In this document: piece by piece, positions 47,279 to 61,072 of the stretch
Numbering within the stretch: position 1 is the first letter of the stretch
Layout of the letters: each line of letters starts with the position of its first letter
NCBI GenBank assembly: GCA_937923325.1
Contig: CAKZUQ010000011.1
Span: 46,219-110,218 of the forward strand
Reading direction: 5' to 3'
Length of the DNA stretch: 64,000 nt
Source: an uncultured Bacteriovoracaceae bacterium
Lineage (GTDB): Bacteria > Bdellovibrionota > Bacteriovoracia > Bacteriovoracales > Bacteriovoracaceae
The notes under the pieces: model-generated
Database searches by the model: none
Seen by the model: only the letters and a program-made list of their open reading frames with translations
What the model was told of the DNA's origin: nothing
Program-made: the position numbers and the translations under genes

Positions 47279-50200
47279 TTACTTAATAATAAGTTTAAAA
47301 GTATCACTTTTATTTTTAGATGTTGTCTCAATAAGAGTTTCTCCCTTCTCATTTTTTGTCTCTTTTAAAGCGCCAGATATTACTCTTACAGATGAAGAGA
47401 TATATTTATCTGCCATCTTTAGGTTATTTGGGTAACTTATTTTCACAAGACTCAGACCGTGTTCTAAAAAGTTTGAAATTGAATACTCAATATTTGGTTG
47501 TGTACTTAGTTTAGAAATTTTTGATACAGTAACACTAGATGGTCTCTTTTTAGAACCTAGAGCTTCCACACTATAGTTCGTAATAGTATCTAAAGCAAAA
47601 TATAGTTTTTTCCCTTCTGATTTAATATCAGTAAATATTCTACGACTACCAGATGTTTTAGTTTTAAAACTATTTTCAGCTTTTACAAATTTTCCGTCTT
47701 CTTTTACGAAAAGAGAAGGAACAATACTTCCCCAATAAGTATTTGAAGAACTCTTTAAATATTTGATTGAAAGGCTAACCTTATCTTCTTCAATATCTCC
47801 AATAGGATAAAAAGAAAAGTGTCCAGATTTAACATCAACAGAAATATCCTGAACCTCTTCGAATGATTCAAAAATTACTTTTGATACGACATTTGTGTTT
47901 ACAGCAACAGGTACCTCTAAACTACTCCCCTCTTTCAAAGTATATTCACTCTTTAAAGCTCCAAAAGAACTTGTATCAACAATCAAGTCATAAACTGAGC
48001 TACTTAACCAAGTAGAAGAACTCGTAGAGATAGTTAATTCCCAAATACCAGCTTGAACTTTCCCCTCTTTAAGAGTCGAAACATTTATACTTGCTTGGTT
48101 ATAACCATTGATAGAATTATTTGTTGAAGACTTAAAAGATACTTCTTTTCCAGTTGGATCATAAAGTTGAACGTACAATAAACCTGATGAACTTGAATCT
48201 ATAGCGGTCTTAATATCAATAGACTGCATTTTAGAATCGATCATTAGTGGGTAACGATGAAAAGTGTTTTGTGCAATTTCTACATTTTTTCTGTAGAATC
48301 CTTTAGCAACAGATTTTAAAGATGGATCTATTGCGGGAACAGAAATTTTTTGTTTTCTCAATAATAGAGGCATATGAACAACATCTAGAATGTTTTGAAC
48401 AGTATTTCCTTTATAAGATATTTTATAATGAGCAATATATGTAGAGCCACGCTTCATATTAGCTAAGTTTCTTTTAGAATAAAAAGACTTCGTTCTTCTA
48501 TTATTAAATGTTACATGAGTTCCTAATTTTTGGTTAGAAGCATTTCCTTGATCTATAATTGAGAAGAATTTAGTAAAATCTTCTAGGCCAGTTGAATCTG
48601 CAATCATTTTTTGAACTTTTCCATTTGTTCCAATTATTTCAATTTTTGCAAGTTTTACATCAACTCCATTCGCCAATATATTTGCTTTAGATTTAAGTGT
48701 TCTTTCCCCATCAAGACCAAGGGTTAATGTAAACTCCTGTCTTAAAGCATGAGTGTTTCTTTCATATGATTTTTTATGATTATTAATTACAACTTCAAAA
48801 TAATCAGATTCATTTGAGTTCAACTTAGTTAAAATATCTCGAAGAGAGCTCTTAGCAGAACCTGCATCAATTAGGCCATAACCTTGTTGAGCAAGAGTTA
48901 AGTCTTCAAGTTCGATAGCTGTTTTTTGAAGAGCATCACGCATTCCATATACATATGGTAAAAGTGTTCTTTTAGACTTTACTGTTCTTTTCTTATTTAA
49001 CTTTCTTTGAGAATTGATATGTTCAAATAAAGACTTGTCTTCTTTTTTAAGACTTCCAATAATAGCGGCCATTGCACCTGCTGCTAATGGCGAAGACATA
49101 CTAGTTCCATTAGCTTGAGACATATAACCTTCGGCCGTAAGAACTGTAGATATTGCTGCACCAGGAGCTACAATATTTGGTTTCATTTCACTTGTATAGC
49201 TTGGACCAAGAGAACTAAAAAATAAAAGATTTTCATTATTTATTGTTGATCCTCCAGGTAGATTATATTGATCACTCAAAGTCTTAGACGAAACATTTGC
49301 CCCCACAGTAACAACAGCACCAGTATTTCCAATATGGTTTAAAGATCTAAATCCAGGTCCAGAGTTAGATGCAGAAACAAAGAATATAGTTCCAAACTTG
49401 GCAGATAAATCATCTAAAATATAAGAATAAACACCTTTTTTATATTTCTCATGAGATCCTAAAGAAATATTAACGACATCAGGGATCAATCCTTTTTTAT
49501 TATAAAAAGTTTTATATAAAGCTTTAATGATAGCTGAGTCTGTACAAGAAATTTGTGTACATACCTTTAGCGCCATAATTTTAGCCTTTGGAGCAGCTCC
49601 GACAAGATGATTTTCAGGATCATTGGCTGCAATAATACCAGCAACATGAGTTCCATGCATTCCACCTGTCTTTCCAAGACCAATAATGATTTCATCCTCT
49701 TTCTCTTCTACAAGTAAAGGATATTTTAAAATAGAGTTCCTTGTAGGAAACTCAACCATTCCTAAATTTCTTTTAGACTTAGTTGTTAAATTATAATCAA
49801 TTAATGCTTTAGACTCTTTTTTAGAAAATTTGTAATCACCATCTACATCAAAGTATACCTTAACTCCACTTTCTGTTTTTACAGCAATAACAGGAAAGAC
49901 GTCACTTGATTTATTTAAGTTTATATCCAAAAAAGATATTTCTTCTTTACCAGTATTTGATAGTTGTGCAGCGAGATCACTTTCTTTTAAAGAAGCTATG
50001 AACACCTCACCTTTTGCAATATCTCTTGGAAGCTCTAATACCTTTTGATCTAAGGAAAAAGTAAGATTAGAAGTCGCAACAGGCTTAAGGGAAACTTGAA
50101 CTTCTTCAGTAGCATCATACCAATAGTCAACCCTTCCTTCAAAGCCAGGATGGCTTGCATCAACACCAGTGTCGATAACAGCAACAACTGTATCCTCTCC

Positions 50201-50734
50201 AAGTGATTCTCTTGTTTCTCCATAACCAACAACAGAATCAATACCTACACTCTTTGTCGGTATAAAATTTTCAGGTGTAATACTTCCTGACTTTAGTTTA
50301 GTAGTTACAGGTTTAACTAAAGTATTACTAGAGTCTAAAGACGCTGCTTTGAGTTTTAAACTTTCCATAAAAGAAGAGTCATTTATTTGCTCTGGAGAAA
50401 GACTAGCGAGATAAAATGGAACAGTTGCCCCTAATCTATTGTTTGGATCATATATAAGTTCTCCACCACCAGCAATCAAAGCTTCTATAGATTTTTGAAT
50501 ATCCCCTTTTGGTACTAAAATTAAAGTAAGGCTTGGATATCTGTAATAAGGAAGTATCTCCGTTTGTAAATCAGTTAGCACCTTAGCACTTAGATCAACA
50601 TCCACTTCTTTATTTAGACTTGCCAAAGAAGAATTATTTACCATCTCTGTCGACGGTATAACTTTTTTATCACCACATGCAGATAGTATTAATACAAGCA
50701 ATAAAAAACAGCTTTTTTTTAAAATAAAACTCAT
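47279..50734 (-). CDS. S8 (subtilisin-family) protease lipoprotein with large Asp-His insert
   Basis: 1151 residues, outer-surface or periplasmic serine protease. Lipobox LSAC at 17-20. A pro-domain-like region spans about 40-170. The catalytic triad is intact: D188 (AVIDTGVD), H360 (MHGTHVAG), S545 (NGTSMSSP), with oxyanion N457. The 172-residue Asp-to-His spacing includes a roughly 140-residue insert, as in pyrolysin and tripeptidyl-peptidase II types. A C-terminal region of about 550 residues is beta-rich with several Ig- or jelly-roll-like modules. AGGAG precedes the ATG. Role in prey protein digestion is inferred. Confidence 0.93.
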   Translation of the reverse strand: MSFILKKSCFLLLVLILSACGDKKVIPSTEMVNNSSLASLNKEVDVDLSAKVLTDLQTEILPYYRYPSLTLILVPKGDIQKSIEALIAGGGELIYDPNNRLGATVPFYLASLSPEQINDSSFMESLKLKAASLDSSNTLVKPVTTKLKSGSITPENFIPTKSVGIDSVVGYGETRESLGEDTVVAVIDTGVDASHPGFEGRVDYWYDATEEVQVSLKPVATSNLTFSLDQKVLELPRDIAKGEVFIASLKESDLAAQLSNTGKEEISFLDINLNKSSDVFPVIAVKTESGVKVYFDVDGDYKFSKKESKALIDYNLTTKSKRNLGMVEFPTRNSILKYPLLVEEKEDEIIIGLGKTGGMHGTHVAGIIAANDPENHLVGAAPKAKIMALKVCTQISCTDSAIIKALYKTFYNKKGLIPDVVNISLGSHEKYKKGVYSYILDDLSAKFGTIFFVSASNSGPGFRSLNHIGNTGAVVTVGANVSSKTLSDQYNLPGGSTINNENLLFFSSLGPSYTSEMKPNIVAPGAAISTVLTAEGYMSQANGTSMSSPLAAGAMAAIIGSLKKEDKSLFEHINSQRKLNKKRTVKSKRTLLPYVYGMRDALQKTAIELEDLTLAQQGYGLIDAGSAKSSLRDILTKLNSNESDYFEVVINNHKKSYERNTHALRQEFTLTLGLDGERTLKSKANILANGVDVKLAKIEIIGTNGKVQKMIADSTGLEDFTKFFSIIDQGNASNQKLGTHVTFNNRRTKSFYSKRNLANMKRGSTYIAHYKISYKGNTVQNILDVVHMPLLLRKQKISVPAIDPSLKSVAKGFYRKNVEIAQNTFHRYPLMIDSKMQSIDIKTAIDSSSSGLLYVQLYDPTGKEVSFKSSTNNSINGYNQASINVSTLKEGKVQAGIWELTISTSSSTWLSSSVYDLIVDTSSFGALKSEYTLKEGSSLEVPVAVNTNVVSKVIFESFEEVQDISVDVKSGHFSFYPIGDIEEDKVSLSIKYLKSSSNTYWGSIVPSLFVKEDGKFVKAENSFKTKTSGSRRIFTDIKSEGKKLYFALDTITNYSVEALGSKKRPSSVTVSKISKLSTQPNIEYSISNFLEHGLSLVKISYPNNLKMADKYISSSVRVISGALKETKNEKGETLIETTSKNKSDTFKLIIK

Positions 50735-57058: not shown

Positions 57059-57814
57059 GTGCTTAAATTATTTTTATTACTAATGTCGTTGAGTAGTTAT
57101 GGGTATCTAGACCTCTCTGCATCAATAAGCTACAGAAGCTTTCCTTCGTCTGGTGGAGAAATATCTTTAGAAAGTGGTTACAATATGCTTTTTTATGGAT
57201 CAGGAAAAGGCGACTCATTGATCTATGGTCTACTGAGACCGAAGCTAAGACTTGCTTCTAGTGGTGTTATAAACTCCTATGATATGTCTATAGAGTTTTT
57301 TCCCATTTCTTTTCTAGGCTTTGAGATTGGACACTCTAAAACTATTTCAAACTATGAAGATTTTGATTTCTATAATTGCGAAGAAATATCTTGCTCAGGA
57401 GCTATAACTAGAGACTATGTAGGGCAAAAGTTAGCTTTTGGACTTAATAGCTTTTTGCTTATGGCCAAGACTTATATATATAGAAACCAATACACATCAA
57501 GAAATAGTGTAAATCCTATTGGTGAATTCAGATACTTTTCTCTAGCTAATAATAATGAAGATCAAAACTATTTTAGCCAATACGCCATAGGTCTTAGGTT
57601 TAAAAATAACTTGTTAATGATTGTGAGTGAATATAATCGCTTTATAAGATCTGATGAAGTTTACAAGATGAACTTAATTACTTATATTAACAAGATAGGT
57701 GACAATATTTTCACGTTTGGTTTAGGAACTTCAAAGTCGACACATGTAAAAGAAGGCTTCTCAACTATTCTTCAGTGGAAGTATAATTTTAAAGATTCAC
57801 AAAAACTATTTTAG
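57059..57814 (+). CDS. Exported outer-membrane-like protein, first gene of exporter operon
   Basis: 251 residues with signal peptide 1-15 (LSSYG). Beta-rich mature part with alternating strands (DLSASISYRS, MSIEFFPISFLGFEIGHSK, QYAIGLRFKNNLLMIVSEY) and one CEEISC Cys pair (about 113-118). It ends QWKYNFKDSQKLF. It looks like a small outer-membrane barrel, family unknown. GTG start with AAAGGA 7 bases before. 13 bases separate it from the membrane-domain/HlyD gene, so it is probably a dedicated component or cargo-associated factor of that system. Confidence 0.75.
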   Translation: MLKLFLLLMSLSSYGYLDLSASISYRSFPSSGGEISLESGYNMLFYGSGKGDSLIYGLLRPKLRLASSGVINSYDMSIEFFPISFLGFEIGHSKTISNYEDFDFYNCEEISCSGAITRDYVGQKLAFGLNSFLLMAKTYIYRNQYTSRNSVNPIGEFRYFSLANNNEDQNYFSQYAIGLRFKNNLLMIVSEYNRFIRSDEVYKMNLITYINKIGDNIFTFGLGTSKSTHVKEGFSTILQWKYNFKDSQKLF

Positions 57815-57827
57815 CTTAAGGCGCAAT

Positions 57828-59735
57828 ATGAATTACTCAGATTTCACAAAGAGAATCTTAAAATTAATAAAAGAAGACAAAGATCTAATAAGAAAAATAT
57901 CCATATTTGCGATACTACTAGGGTTACTTGAATTGACAATACCAATAGGTGTACAAGTAATTATAAATAGAGTTTATCAAACTCTTCTTCTAGACTCTGT
58001 TGTATTAGTCATAAGTGCAGTTGCTGTGTTTCTAATATTTCAAGTTTTTTATTTATTATTAAGGTTTAATTTAGCAGAATACCTTCAAAGACGAATTGTA
58101 TCACGAATATCTATATCAATTACAGATGATTTGCTAAAGACAGATAGAAAACATCTCGATAAAATTAAATTTTTTGAATCCTTTTCTTTAAGTAAAAACA
58201 TTAGTTACTTTCTTACCGACGGACTTAATCTAATATTGGCTTTCACCTTCGGTGCTTTAATTGTATTATTTTATCATCCTTTTTTTGCAGTTTTAACTGT
58301 TTTGACAGCAGGTCTTTATGTTTTAATACTGTATAGCTTTCATAATCGCTGCTCTGTGACTGCTATAAATGAATCGAAAAGTAAATACAATTTAGCAGAA
58401 GCAATTATAAATTCCAAAGAACAAGATTTAGATAAACTTGAAGAGATCAAAGCTTTAACTTCAAGCTTTTTAACATATAGAAAGAAGCATTTCTCATTAT
58501 TAAAACTTCAATATATTCTAATATTAATAGTCTATATTATGTCTCAAGTTGCCCTACTAGGATTTGGAAGCTATTTAGTACTAAAGGGTAATCTTTCTGT
58601 AGGACAGCTCGTTGCCAGTGAATTAATTTTTTCAGTAGTATTAATATCTATTGCAAAATCTATAAAATTTTTAGAAGCATATTATGATACCTATGCAAAT
58701 ATAGAAAAAGTGTCATTTATAAGAAACTTTAAAAATTTTGACAGTCCTTACCTTAAGAGTCAATCAGCTAATAAATACTATCGATGGTCACTAGCTTTAC
58801 TATTTTCGTTACCATTTTTACTATTGCTTCTACCTTGGAGACAAACAGCTTATGGACACGGTCAATTGACTACACTCAACCCAGAAGAAAGAACTCAAGA
58901 AATATCTTCATTTGTCGATGGAAGAATTTCTAAATGGTATGTAAAAGAAGGTGAAGAAGTCGAAAAGGATCAGCCAATAGTTGAACTTGTTGACAATGAT
59001 CCAAATTACCTTGAAAGACTAAGATTAGATAGAGATGCGTCTTTTCAAAAGTATGAGGCACAAAAAATTGCAGCAACAACTGCATTAATTAATTTAAAAA
59101 GACAAAAAGACTTATACAAAGAAGGGCTTACAAGTCGAGTGAAGTTTGAAAAATCAAAGATTGAATACCACAAGCTACTATCTAAAGAAGCAGAAGCAGC
59201 ATCAAGTTTAGCAAAGAAAGAAACAATGCTATCAAGACAAGAAAGAAGAATTGTTTTAGCTCCAAGTCGTGGTGTGATTCAACAATTATATTCAGGGAAT
59301 ACATCTAGTATTATTAAAAAAGGGACAAAGTTAGCAGTTTTTGTTCCTGATACAAAGGAAAGAGCAATTGAAGTATATGTAAAAGGACAGGACTTACCTT
59401 TAATATATCCAGGAAGAGAAGCTCTAATTGAATTTGATGGTTTTCCAGCTTTTCAATTCAGTGGGTGGCCATCTATAGGAATTGGCCTTTTTAAGGCAAC
59501 AGTAAGTAGTGTAGATTCGACAGTTTCAAAAAATGGAAAGTTTAGAGTAATCATCGTCCCAAAAAACGATGAAGCATGGCCAAAGTCTTCTATTTTAAGA
59601 AGAGGAGCAAAAGCAATTAGCTGGATACAACTAAATGAGGTTAAGCTGGGTTATGAGCTATGGCGACAATTTAATGGCTTTCCAAGTCTTCCAGGTGAAA
59701 AAGAAATCAAAGAATACGAAAAGGGTAAAAAATGA
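57828..59735 (+). CDS. ABC-exporter membrane domain fused to HlyD adaptor, no ATPase domain
   Basis: 635 residues. Residues 1-300 follow the plan of an ABC type-1 exporter membrane domain: six hydrophobic segments at about 23-46, 56-80, 130-150, 151-172, 229-252 and 260-278, with the conserved ELTIPIGVQVIINRVY start. Where the nucleotide-binding domain should begin there is instead a seventh membrane segment (about 320-338) and a complete HlyD-like periplasmic adaptor: barrel-sandwich halves at about 345-390 (VDGRISKWYVKEGEEVEKDQ) and 470-510 (APSRGVIQQLYSG), joined by an alpha-hairpin (about 395-470), then a beta-barrel domain. No Walker A, signature or Walker B motif exists. Co-translated with TolC-like gene by a 4-base overlap. 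Confidence 0.88.
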   Translation: MNYSDFTKRILKLIKEDKDLIRKISIFAILLGLLELTIPIGVQVIINRVYQTLLLDSVVLVISAVAVFLIFQVFYLLLRFNLAEYLQRRIVSRISISITDDLLKTDRKHLDKIKFFESFSLSKNISYFLTDGLNLILAFTFGALIVLFYHPFFAVLTVLTAGLYVLILYSFHNRCSVTAINESKSKYNLAEAIINSKEQDLDKLEEIKALTSSFLTYRKKHFSLLKLQYILILIVYIMSQVALLGFGSYLVLKGNLSVGQLVASELIFSVVLISIAKSIKFLEAYYDTYANIEKVSFIRNFKNFDSPYLKSQSANKYYRWSLALLFSLPFLLLLLPWRQTAYGHGQLTTLNPEERTQEISSFVDGRISKWYVKEGEEVEKDQPIVELVDNDPNYLERLRLDRDASFQKYEAQKIAATTALINLKRQKDLYKEGLTSRVKFEKSKIEYHKLLSKEAEAASSLAKKETMLSRQERRIVLAPSRGVIQQLYSGNTSSIIKKGTKLAVFVPDTKERAIEVYVKGQDLPLIYPGREALIEFDGFPAFQFSGWPSIGIGLFKATVSSVDSTVSKNGKFRVIIVPKNDEAWPKSSILRRGAKAISWIQLNEVKLGYELWRQFNGFPSLPGEKEIKEYEKGKK

Positions 59736-61072
59736 TAAATATTCTACTTGCCTTTACAGTTCCACTTTACTCTCTAGCAGTAACTCTTGAATTGAAGGAT
59801 ATATTAGATTACTCTCTAGAGAATTATCCTGGTTTGTTAAAACAAGTTGAAGAAACAGCTATTTCTAAAGCAAAAGTAAATGAAGTAGATGGAAACTTCG
59901 ACATGAGCCTAGATGCAAAAATTAATACTTTTACAGAAGGTTTTTATGATACTGATTTCTCTAGAGTTTCACTAACTAAGCCCATTAAGGTTTTAAATTC
60001 AAAGTTAGAAGTTGGAGCGCGAAAAAGTAATGGTAATTTACCTGTATATTATCAAGAATACGAAACAGGAGAGAATCCTGAATATTTCATAAAACTTAAA
60101 ATGAGCCTATTGAAATTTAGATCAATCGATCCTAAAAGATATAAATTATTTGAAGCAAAGAATAAACTCTTCATACAGAATCAAAAACTAATCTCTAAAA
60201 GATTGGATCTTGAGCTAAATATAAATAACCTTTATCTAAAATGGCTTTTTCTATATCAAAAGCAAAAAATATACAAAAGTCTAATAAAATTAAATACAAA
60301 AAGAATAAATGCAATCAAAAGAAGAGTTAAAAAGAATGATCTTGCACAAATTTATGTTGTTGAATCACAACAATATCTACTAAATTTTCAAAATGTTTTA
60401 ATTGATACTAATATGAAAATCTCACAAGTTGCCAACAAACTAAGAGTCTACTACCCAATATTAAAAGAAGAACATAGACCAATAAAAAAGCTAGAATTCA
60501 ACTCTACAAGTGATTTTTCAAAATATGATACAAAAATCATTGTAAATAAAAGACCAGAGATTAAAGTTTTAAAAAAAATGTTTCAACTAACAAAGAAAGA
60601 GCTAAAGCTTTCAAACCAATTCTTAATTCCAAAGCTCGATTTATCGGCAAGTCATTACAGCTCTGAATCAAAAAAAGAAAAATTTCAAAATGAAAGCTTC
60701 ATTAGTTTAAATTTAAGCATACCAATAGAAAGAAGTTTGGGTCGAGGAAAGAAACAAATAGCGAAAGCAAAATCTCTTAAGATAAAAGCTATTCAAGAAG
60801 AAGTTAAAAGAAAGTTAAGCTTGGAAATAAATAATTTAAAAGCGGAAATTAGTGGAAATCTCCTATCCTTGCAAAACTTAAAAAAAGAAATAAGTATTTC
60901 AAAAAGATTACAAGATGCAGAGTGGAAAAGGTTTAATTCGGGAGCTAGTGATTTTTTCTTAACAAACACAAGGGATACGAATTATGCTAAAGCAAAATTA
61001 AATTTTTTAGAAAAACTTATCAATTTCAAGCAAGCTAAATTTAATTTAGACCTTTGGAAAAAACAAATTTGA
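59732..61072 (+). CDS. TolC-family outer-membrane channel
   Basis: 446 residues with a signal peptide (residues 1-16, SLAVT). TolC-like two-fold repeat: LELKDILDYSLENYPGLLK (about 20-38) is the classical family start, followed by long alpha-helices, beta segments (DLSASHYSS near 310), a second helical pair, and a C-terminal coil (LEKLINFKQAKFNLDLWKK). Strongly Lys-rich. It overlaps the fusion gene by 4 bases, so it is the natural exit duct for that adaptor. It converges on a minus-strand lipoprotein 7 bases away with no visible terminator. Confidence 0.87.
   Translation: MINILLAFTVPLYSLAVTLELKDILDYSLENYPGLLKQVEETAISKAKVNEVDGNFDMSLDAKINTFTEGFYDTDFSRVSLTKPIKVLNSKLEVGARKSNGNLPVYYQEYETGENPEYFIKLKMSLLKFRSIDPKRYKLFEAKNKLFIQNQKLISKRLDLELNINNLYLKWLFLYQKQKIYKSLIKLNTKRINAIKRRVKKNDLAQIYVVESQQYLLNFQNVLIDTNMKISQVANKLRVYYPILKEEHRPIKKLEFNSTSDFSKYDTKIIVNKRPEIKVLKKMFQLTKKELKLSNQFLIPKLDLSASHYSSESKKEKFQNESFISLNLSIPIERSLGRGKKQIAKAKSLKIKAIQEEVKRKLSLEINNLKAEISGNLLSLQNLKKEISISKRLQDAEWKRFNSGASDFFLTNTRDTNYAKAKLNFLEKLINFKQAKFNLDLWKKQI

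Follow-up and report, generated by a model that had tools for sequence, protein, structure and literature searches.

The 64-kb stretch of DNA analysed here (the window) contains one intact open reading frame (ORF) that joins an ABC-exporter membrane domain to an HlyD-type adaptor and has no nucleotide-binding domain (NBD) (Table 1), raising the question of how such a protein could take part in export. The direct fusion and the missing ATPase, both claimed in an earlier note on this locus, are confirmed. Sequence profile and fold searches place residues 1-300 among the ABC exporters, in the HlyB/ComA/PCAT class (PF00664-type fold), with TmrAB as the best fold match in structure comparison. Modelled alone, residues 2-301 are predicted to fold compactly, and the model superposes on full-length transporters across their two halves. 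The adaptor half matches HlyD_3 at 42.8 bits (cut-off 22.2), as well as TIGR01843 and TIGR01730 below their curated cut-offs, and its top Foldseek match is MacA. The lipoyl, alpha-hairpin and beta-barrel domains and the RLS tip motif of an HlyD/MFP periplasmic adaptor are all present. Profile searches found no NBD in the fusion protein, neither Walker A, signature, Walker B nor switch His, and no ORF within the window matches the NBD profile.

The TolC-like partner that the note had proposed is encoded directly downstream (Table 1). The upstream gene, probably in one operon with the fusion, codes for a putative outer-membrane barrel without a Pfam or NCBIfam match. A homologue of this protein (P0037, 60% identity) and the fusion homologue P0002 each lie on a contig of 4974 bases, and since the two contigs are equal in length the pairing is probably conserved. 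Farther off in the window, positions 47279-50734 of the minus strand encode a 1151-residue protein with a lipoprotein-like N-terminus and subtilisin-type catalytic motifs, as read by eye.

Table 1. Features of the fusion locus (window coordinates) and of related loci (locus coordinates)
Feature	Position	Strand	Remark
635-aa fusion of an ABC-exporter membrane domain with an HlyD-type adaptor, without NBD	57828..59735	+	one intact ORF
Membrane domain of an ABC exporter, type I secretion class, residues 1-297, six TM helices	57828..58718	+	
Intracellular loop 1, residues 84-115	58077..58172	+	32 residues between anchors vs 39 in intact-NBD relatives
Intracellular loop 2, residues 182-221	58371..58490	+	40 residues between anchors vs 49 in intact-NBD relatives
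Residues 260-265 (Q260, E265), periplasmic end of TM6	58605..58622	+	
Short cytoplasmic linker at the NBD's usual place, residues 298-317	58719..58778	+	presumed topology
Seventh TM helix, adaptor anchor leading to the periplasm, residues 318-337	58779..58838	+	
Periplasmic adaptor (lipoyl, alpha-hairpin, beta-barrel), residues 338-619	58839..59684	+	
RxxxLxxxxxxS TolC-docking motif at hairpin tip, residues 425-436	59100..59135	+	
TolC-family outer-membrane channel (OEP, E 1e-23)	59732..61072	+	4-base overlap of its start with the stop codon of the fusion
251-aa protein, outer-membrane-barrel-like by eye	57059..57814	+	13 bases upstream of the fusion
Inorganic-carbon transporter genes near the operon	L001:1-762; L138:7106-8038; L141:7731-11499; L175/L176/L179 low end		

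The fusion is not peculiar to the window, as the note had supposed. A search of 5.8 billion proteins, in which the 7995 candidates sharing most words were scored, returned at least 35 matches including the query itself, comprising fusions of full length, one partial fusion (P0016), ABC exporters with an NBD and HlyD proteins encoded on their own. At least 15 are full-length fusion homologues (P0002-P0015 and P0017) with 37-62% identity. A second search with 19 aligned fusions as query, again scoring 7995 candidates, yielded no new protein. The same architecture is found at a minimum of seven genome loci beyond the window (L001-L004 and L137-L139). Four of them are among the best 80 of 250 confirmed relatives covered by the genome scan, three in metagenome-assembled genomes (MAGs) labelled Rickettsiales or Rickettsia (L001, L003, L004) and one in a Bdellovibrionales MAG (L002). 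The other three came from a survey of 368 genomes from the phylum of L002's genome, at least 76 of which encode the operon; with at most three candidates scored per genome, 76/368 is a lower bound. Loss of the ATPase is thus conserved among homologues, the point on which the note had proposed to test its reading, and a frameshift or deletion in a single isolate is ruled out by the 15 or more full-length homologues.

That the family is decaying into pseudogenes, or is an artefact of assembly, is very improbable. A few loci are broken, with HlyD in several pieces (L144, L119) or the membrane domain in two ORFs (L122, L108). Against this stand the number of full-length fusions, their origin on at least two occasions (see below) and the TolC-like ORF that lies near 152 of the 157 membrane-domain ORFs, the window counted in. 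In the genome scan a TolC cluster was found in 69/81 sequences. Codon comparison also shows NBD-less membrane domains in other lineages to be under purifying selection, with dN/dS of 0.068 (L120/L123), 0.110 (L001/L003) and 0.101 (L003/L004) in the three of 11 pairs for which it could be estimated, the other eight being saturated.

The relatives suggest how the ATPase disappeared. Read from their sequences, the ABC/HlyD/TolC operons are a series running from an intact ATPase, through an NBD without catalytic motifs and a deleted NBD, to a deleted NBD with fusion of the membrane domain to the adaptor. The commonest form seen has an NBD that has lost its catalytic motifs, as in Xanthomonas, Sphingomonas and Alteromonas loci. 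Among the best 80 of 250 relatives, 75 have the two-gene form, an ABC-like protein with an NBD match followed by HlyD, and an alignment-free pattern search of these 75 found Walker A, signature and Walker B in none; by comparison, all three motifs are present in 11/11 other NBD ORFs at these loci, a control set of closely related ORFs all from Xanthomonas. The note's premise that the ABC protein always brings its ATPase therefore fails for this related family, whose NBDs lack catalytic motifs. An aligned motif table, covering all loci and 13 database proteins (P0023-P0035), has ten rows in which the Walker A Lys, Walker B Asp, catalytic Glu and switch His are all kept, and intermediate rows in which some of these residues are lost; 86 of the 107 rows without Walker A retain none of the four. 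In the next form the membrane domain has an ORF to itself, as a rule some 287-320 residues long, with a separate HlyD gene immediately 3' of it and TolC after that; in many of the loci listed the frames overlap. The last of the best 80 loci (L027) is of this kind, its membrane-domain-only ORF adjoining HlyD.

None of the 75 chromosomal or contig members of the family from relatives in Sphingomonas, Novosphingobium, Xanthomonas and Alteromonas has a recognisable ATPase motif. Five of the 13 best plasmid relatives (H1-H13), all from Sphingomonads, are annotated as ABC transporter ATP-binding protein. Genes so annotated may neither bind nor hydrolyse ATP, the motif loss having been read in chromosomal relatives of the plasmid genes. 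Several genomes encode two paralogous operons, one with a dead and one with a deleted NBD, for example G116 (L164, L128), G101 (L170, L126) and G109 (L165, L130).

The deletion and the fusion were probably each repeated. A tree of membrane domain and adaptor was built with a quick PMSF search from 95 of 183 rows; 110 rows were left after removal of those at least 80% identical, and 95 of these had both domains. NBD presence or absence changes five times on the concatenated tree and five times on the HlyD-only tree, and the fusion state three times on each, counts that do not tell gain from loss. As ABC exporters have an NBD, the NBD-bearing state was taken as ancestral, under which the NBD would have been lost about four or five times. 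One loss, that in L140 and L141, has rows with an intact ATPase as its neighbours. Forcing every fusion into one clade is rejected (AU p 6.75e-8). One origin lies among the MAGs labelled Rickettsiales, where starred branches group the fusions with relatives whose NBD is dead. The window clade and a second, Bdellovibrionales-type clade (L002/L137-L139) are compatible with being one (AU p 0.574), and because they may be one, the tree suggests that the fusion evolved at least twice rather than three times.

What, then, would energise the membrane domain? The earlier note offered two mechanisms, an ATPase supplied in trans and ATP-independent operation, and the two have fared differently. ABC exporters hold their NBD by means of two intracellular loops, to which it docks. 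Measured between fixed anchors, with full length defined as at least 38 residues for loop 1 and 48 for loop 2, both loops are short in the window's fusion (Table 1), whose clade has medians of 34 and 40 residues. In the predicted structure, all that parts the two long helices at loop 2 is a turn of five residues, protein residues 196-200. The loops are full length in 125 of the 127 distinct sequences with an NBD or a remnant of one (10/10 intact, 15/15 partly degenerate, 100/102 dead or vestigial) and short in 47 of the 49 distinct NBD-less sequences (26/26 membrane-domain-only, 21/23 fusions); four other measured segments have a constant length in nearly all rows. The exceptions are the fusions L137 and L139, with full-length loops, and among NBD or remnant sequences L152 (loops of 39 and 47 residues) and L144, placed in that group on account of a 97-residue tail that has no NBD match. 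These counts include the 13 database proteins of the motif table and 16 database fusions, and leave out the contig-edge rows L142 and L143 and rows covering fewer than 220 profile positions. Removal of duplicates, five identical pairs including window/P0001 and L027/L124 (one contig), reduced the fusions from 24 to 23, the membrane-domain-only rows from 27 to 26 and the NBD or remnant rows from 130 to 127. Selective erosion of the docking loops in separate lineages is expected if no NBD docks, and argues against an ATPase in trans.

The genomes point the same way. An ATPase energising the membrane domain in trans might be encoded elsewhere, either as a free-standing NBD protein or as a complete ABC exporter that pairs with the fusion in a heterodimer. 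In each of the six fusion-bearing genomes the best match to the NBD profile of this operon family, among the matches listed, scores 127-172 bits, compared with 287-301 bits in two control genomes with an intact operon; the ORFs holding these listed matches are as long as whole exporters (569-629 aa). The best listed ORF below 420 aa scores 155 bits (G003) and the next 112 bits. As a stand-alone NBD the G003 ORF was rejected, since it belongs to a complete exporter of the usual kind whose frame is broken by undetermined bases in the assembly. The search for an orphan ATPase that the note had suggested thus found, among the matches listed, no stand-alone ORF close to the family's own NBD in the six draft genomes. 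Nor does any listed PF00005 match lie on the fusion's contig in the draft genomes G002, G212 and G239, and in G213 the closest listed one is about 77 kb off. These genomes are nonetheless rich in general ABC ATPases (at least 17-47 PF00005 matches each), and a general NBD could dock; general ABC exporters are also present, although an active partner of the same subfamily has no candidate among the listed matches, which include no close NBD relative in the six draft genomes. Heterodimeric exporters with one degenerate site do exist (TmrAB, from a section of PMC8277102), and 2/23 distinct fusions keep full-length loops. Given the short loops in 47/49 distinct NBD-less sequences against 2/127 others, the low profile scores and a window devoid of NBD matches, the sequence data weaken the trans-ATPase explanation, which we regard as unlikely. 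ATP-independent operation is the mechanism favoured by the eroded loops; weighing against it are the full-length loops of L137 and L139 and a docking motif that is patchy in the wider family.

If no ATPase acts on it, the membrane domain could be a mere anchor that keeps six adaptors ringed in the inner membrane, the duct they form with TolC being used by another pump or for substrates from the periplasm. In 11/11 pairs compared, conservation is higher in HlyD than in the membrane domain, and the fusion fixes a 1:1 ratio, both in keeping with an anchor. So is the TolC-docking motif, retained in 23/23 distinct fusions, a motif that 8.7% of shuffled sequences also carry; its exact form occurs in 37/92 dead-NBD and 11/25 membrane-domain-only sequences. 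Ordinary HlyD, however, is anchored by a single TM helix, and six extra conserved helices would be superfluous for that purpose. Segment lengths outside the two loops are conserved without an NBD, as are E84, K123, H150, K186, Q260 and E265, which are nearly invariant with or without one (E84 being at 54% in dead-NBD rows), and dN/dS of the membrane domain is low in all three estimable pairs. E265 occurs without exception in the fusions and the membrane-domain-only rows, and in at least 92% of the other forms. Since these polar residues are shared with ATPase-bearing rows, their role may lie in gating, in ion coupling or in contacts with the adaptor; Q260, E265 and H150, conserved in ATPase-bearing relatives too, are not specific to an ATP-free mode. 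On this evidence a pure anchor seems rather unlikely, and by analogy gradient coupling would be the likelier role.

The neighbouring genes bear on what might be exported. Among the first neighbours of non-redundant loci (82 upstream, 74 downstream) no substrate gene recurs beside the operon. LysR regulators account for 18/82 first upstream genes and 2/74 first downstream genes, and no other family occurs in more than two of these neighbours. A test for RTX or double-glycine substrates accordingly gave no recurrent family among first neighbours; such substrates can be encoded elsewhere. LysR beside many operons would suit the export of small molecules better than protein secretion. Separately, DabA, DabB-like and Sbt_1 inorganic-carbon transporter genes adjoin the operon in three different clades (Table 1). 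In the phylum surveyed, DabA is associated with the operon, being present in 45/76 operon genomes and 31/292 others (Fisher p 1e-17), a statistic that ignores genome kinship and uses an operon count that is a lower bound; with kinship uncontrolled, no functional conclusion is drawn.

Taken together, the fusion looks like a derived member of the ABC/HlyD/TolC family whose ATPase died, was then deleted and left a membrane domain fused to the adaptor, and we consider it reasonably probable that it works without ATP as a tripartite exporter. This reading draws on the 1:1 assembly of HlyB with HlyD, three dimers to six adaptors in the part of PMC11026475 consulted, and on reports of gradient-driven NBD-less exporters. 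According to an excerpt of PMC4979069, NBD-less MsbA transports ethidium and chloramphenicol driven by the proton gradient, less effectively than full-length MsbA, and LmrA-MD is an apparent ethidium-proton symporter. In this course of events the catalytic residues of the ATPase would have gone first and the NBD afterwards, with the membrane domain and adaptor ending up in one chain. Its assembly would most likely follow that of HlyB-HlyD, with three membrane-domain dimers and six adaptors docking on TolC, the fusion enforcing the 1:1 ratio of the two domains. Without ATP, the membrane domain may be a gated path that passes a small substrate to the adaptor-TolC duct, or alternatively a secondary, ion-gradient-driven carrier as reported for engineered NBD-less MsbA. 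Ion coupling and substrate class are guesses from these analogies. More tentatively, the fusions may represent a natural class of tripartite exporter, with an ion-gradient-driven ABC membrane domain fused to a TolC adaptor, that evolved repeatedly via a widespread dead-NBD proteobacterial intermediate. Because a search of the window for an ATPase found none, the fusion system is by definition neither a type I secretion system nor an ABC transporter (an enzyme class), but it descends from such systems and probably works like a tripartite exporter.

The note's proposal of an undescribed system is borne out in that searches of the open-access literature found neither a natural ABC exporter without an NBD nor an ABC-HlyD fusion or its operon family described. 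Of known systems, HlyB-HlyD-TolC (8dck/7sgr) resembles the fusion in membrane-domain fold and sequence profile, adaptor class and TolC partner, in the ABC-HlyD-TolC gene order of the two-gene relatives and, from the portion of PMC11026475 seen, in a 1:1 ratio of membrane domain to adaptor. Unlike HlyB-HlyD-TolC, the fusion is without an NBD or a C39-like domain, has the adaptor in the same chain and short docking loops, and its family has no recurrent neighbouring substrate gene. MacAB-TolC and EmrAB-TolC differ in other ways: MacB retains an ATPase and has a different ABC fold, EmrB belongs to the MFS carriers, and both are separate from their adaptors. They share with the fusion the adaptor fold, MacA being the top Foldseek match, and the RLS-type TolC-docking motif, described for MacA in a passage of PMC3391258. 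The heterodimeric exporters TmrAB, TM287/288 and BmrCD differ from the fusion in that here the NBD is gone, and no close same-family partner is among the matches listed from the six fusion genomes. In all three the degenerate subunit has an active partner. They resemble the fusion in membrane-domain fold, and its family in the degeneration of an NBD (TmrB, in the extract of PMC8277102). The engineered NBD-less MsbA (PMC4979069, in the same excerpt), the one example that turned up in the open-access literature, is like LmrA-MD an ABC exporter membrane domain without its NBD. ATPase-free transport by such a domain has so far been argued from these engineered truncations; the natural truncation appears to have been made several times, and since operons that are otherwise equivalent have the ATPase intact, dead or deleted in graded steps, the question is now directly testable. 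MsbA-MD and LmrA-MD are laboratory truncations of ATP-driven pumps and have no adaptor, whereas the fusion family is natural and probably tripartite.
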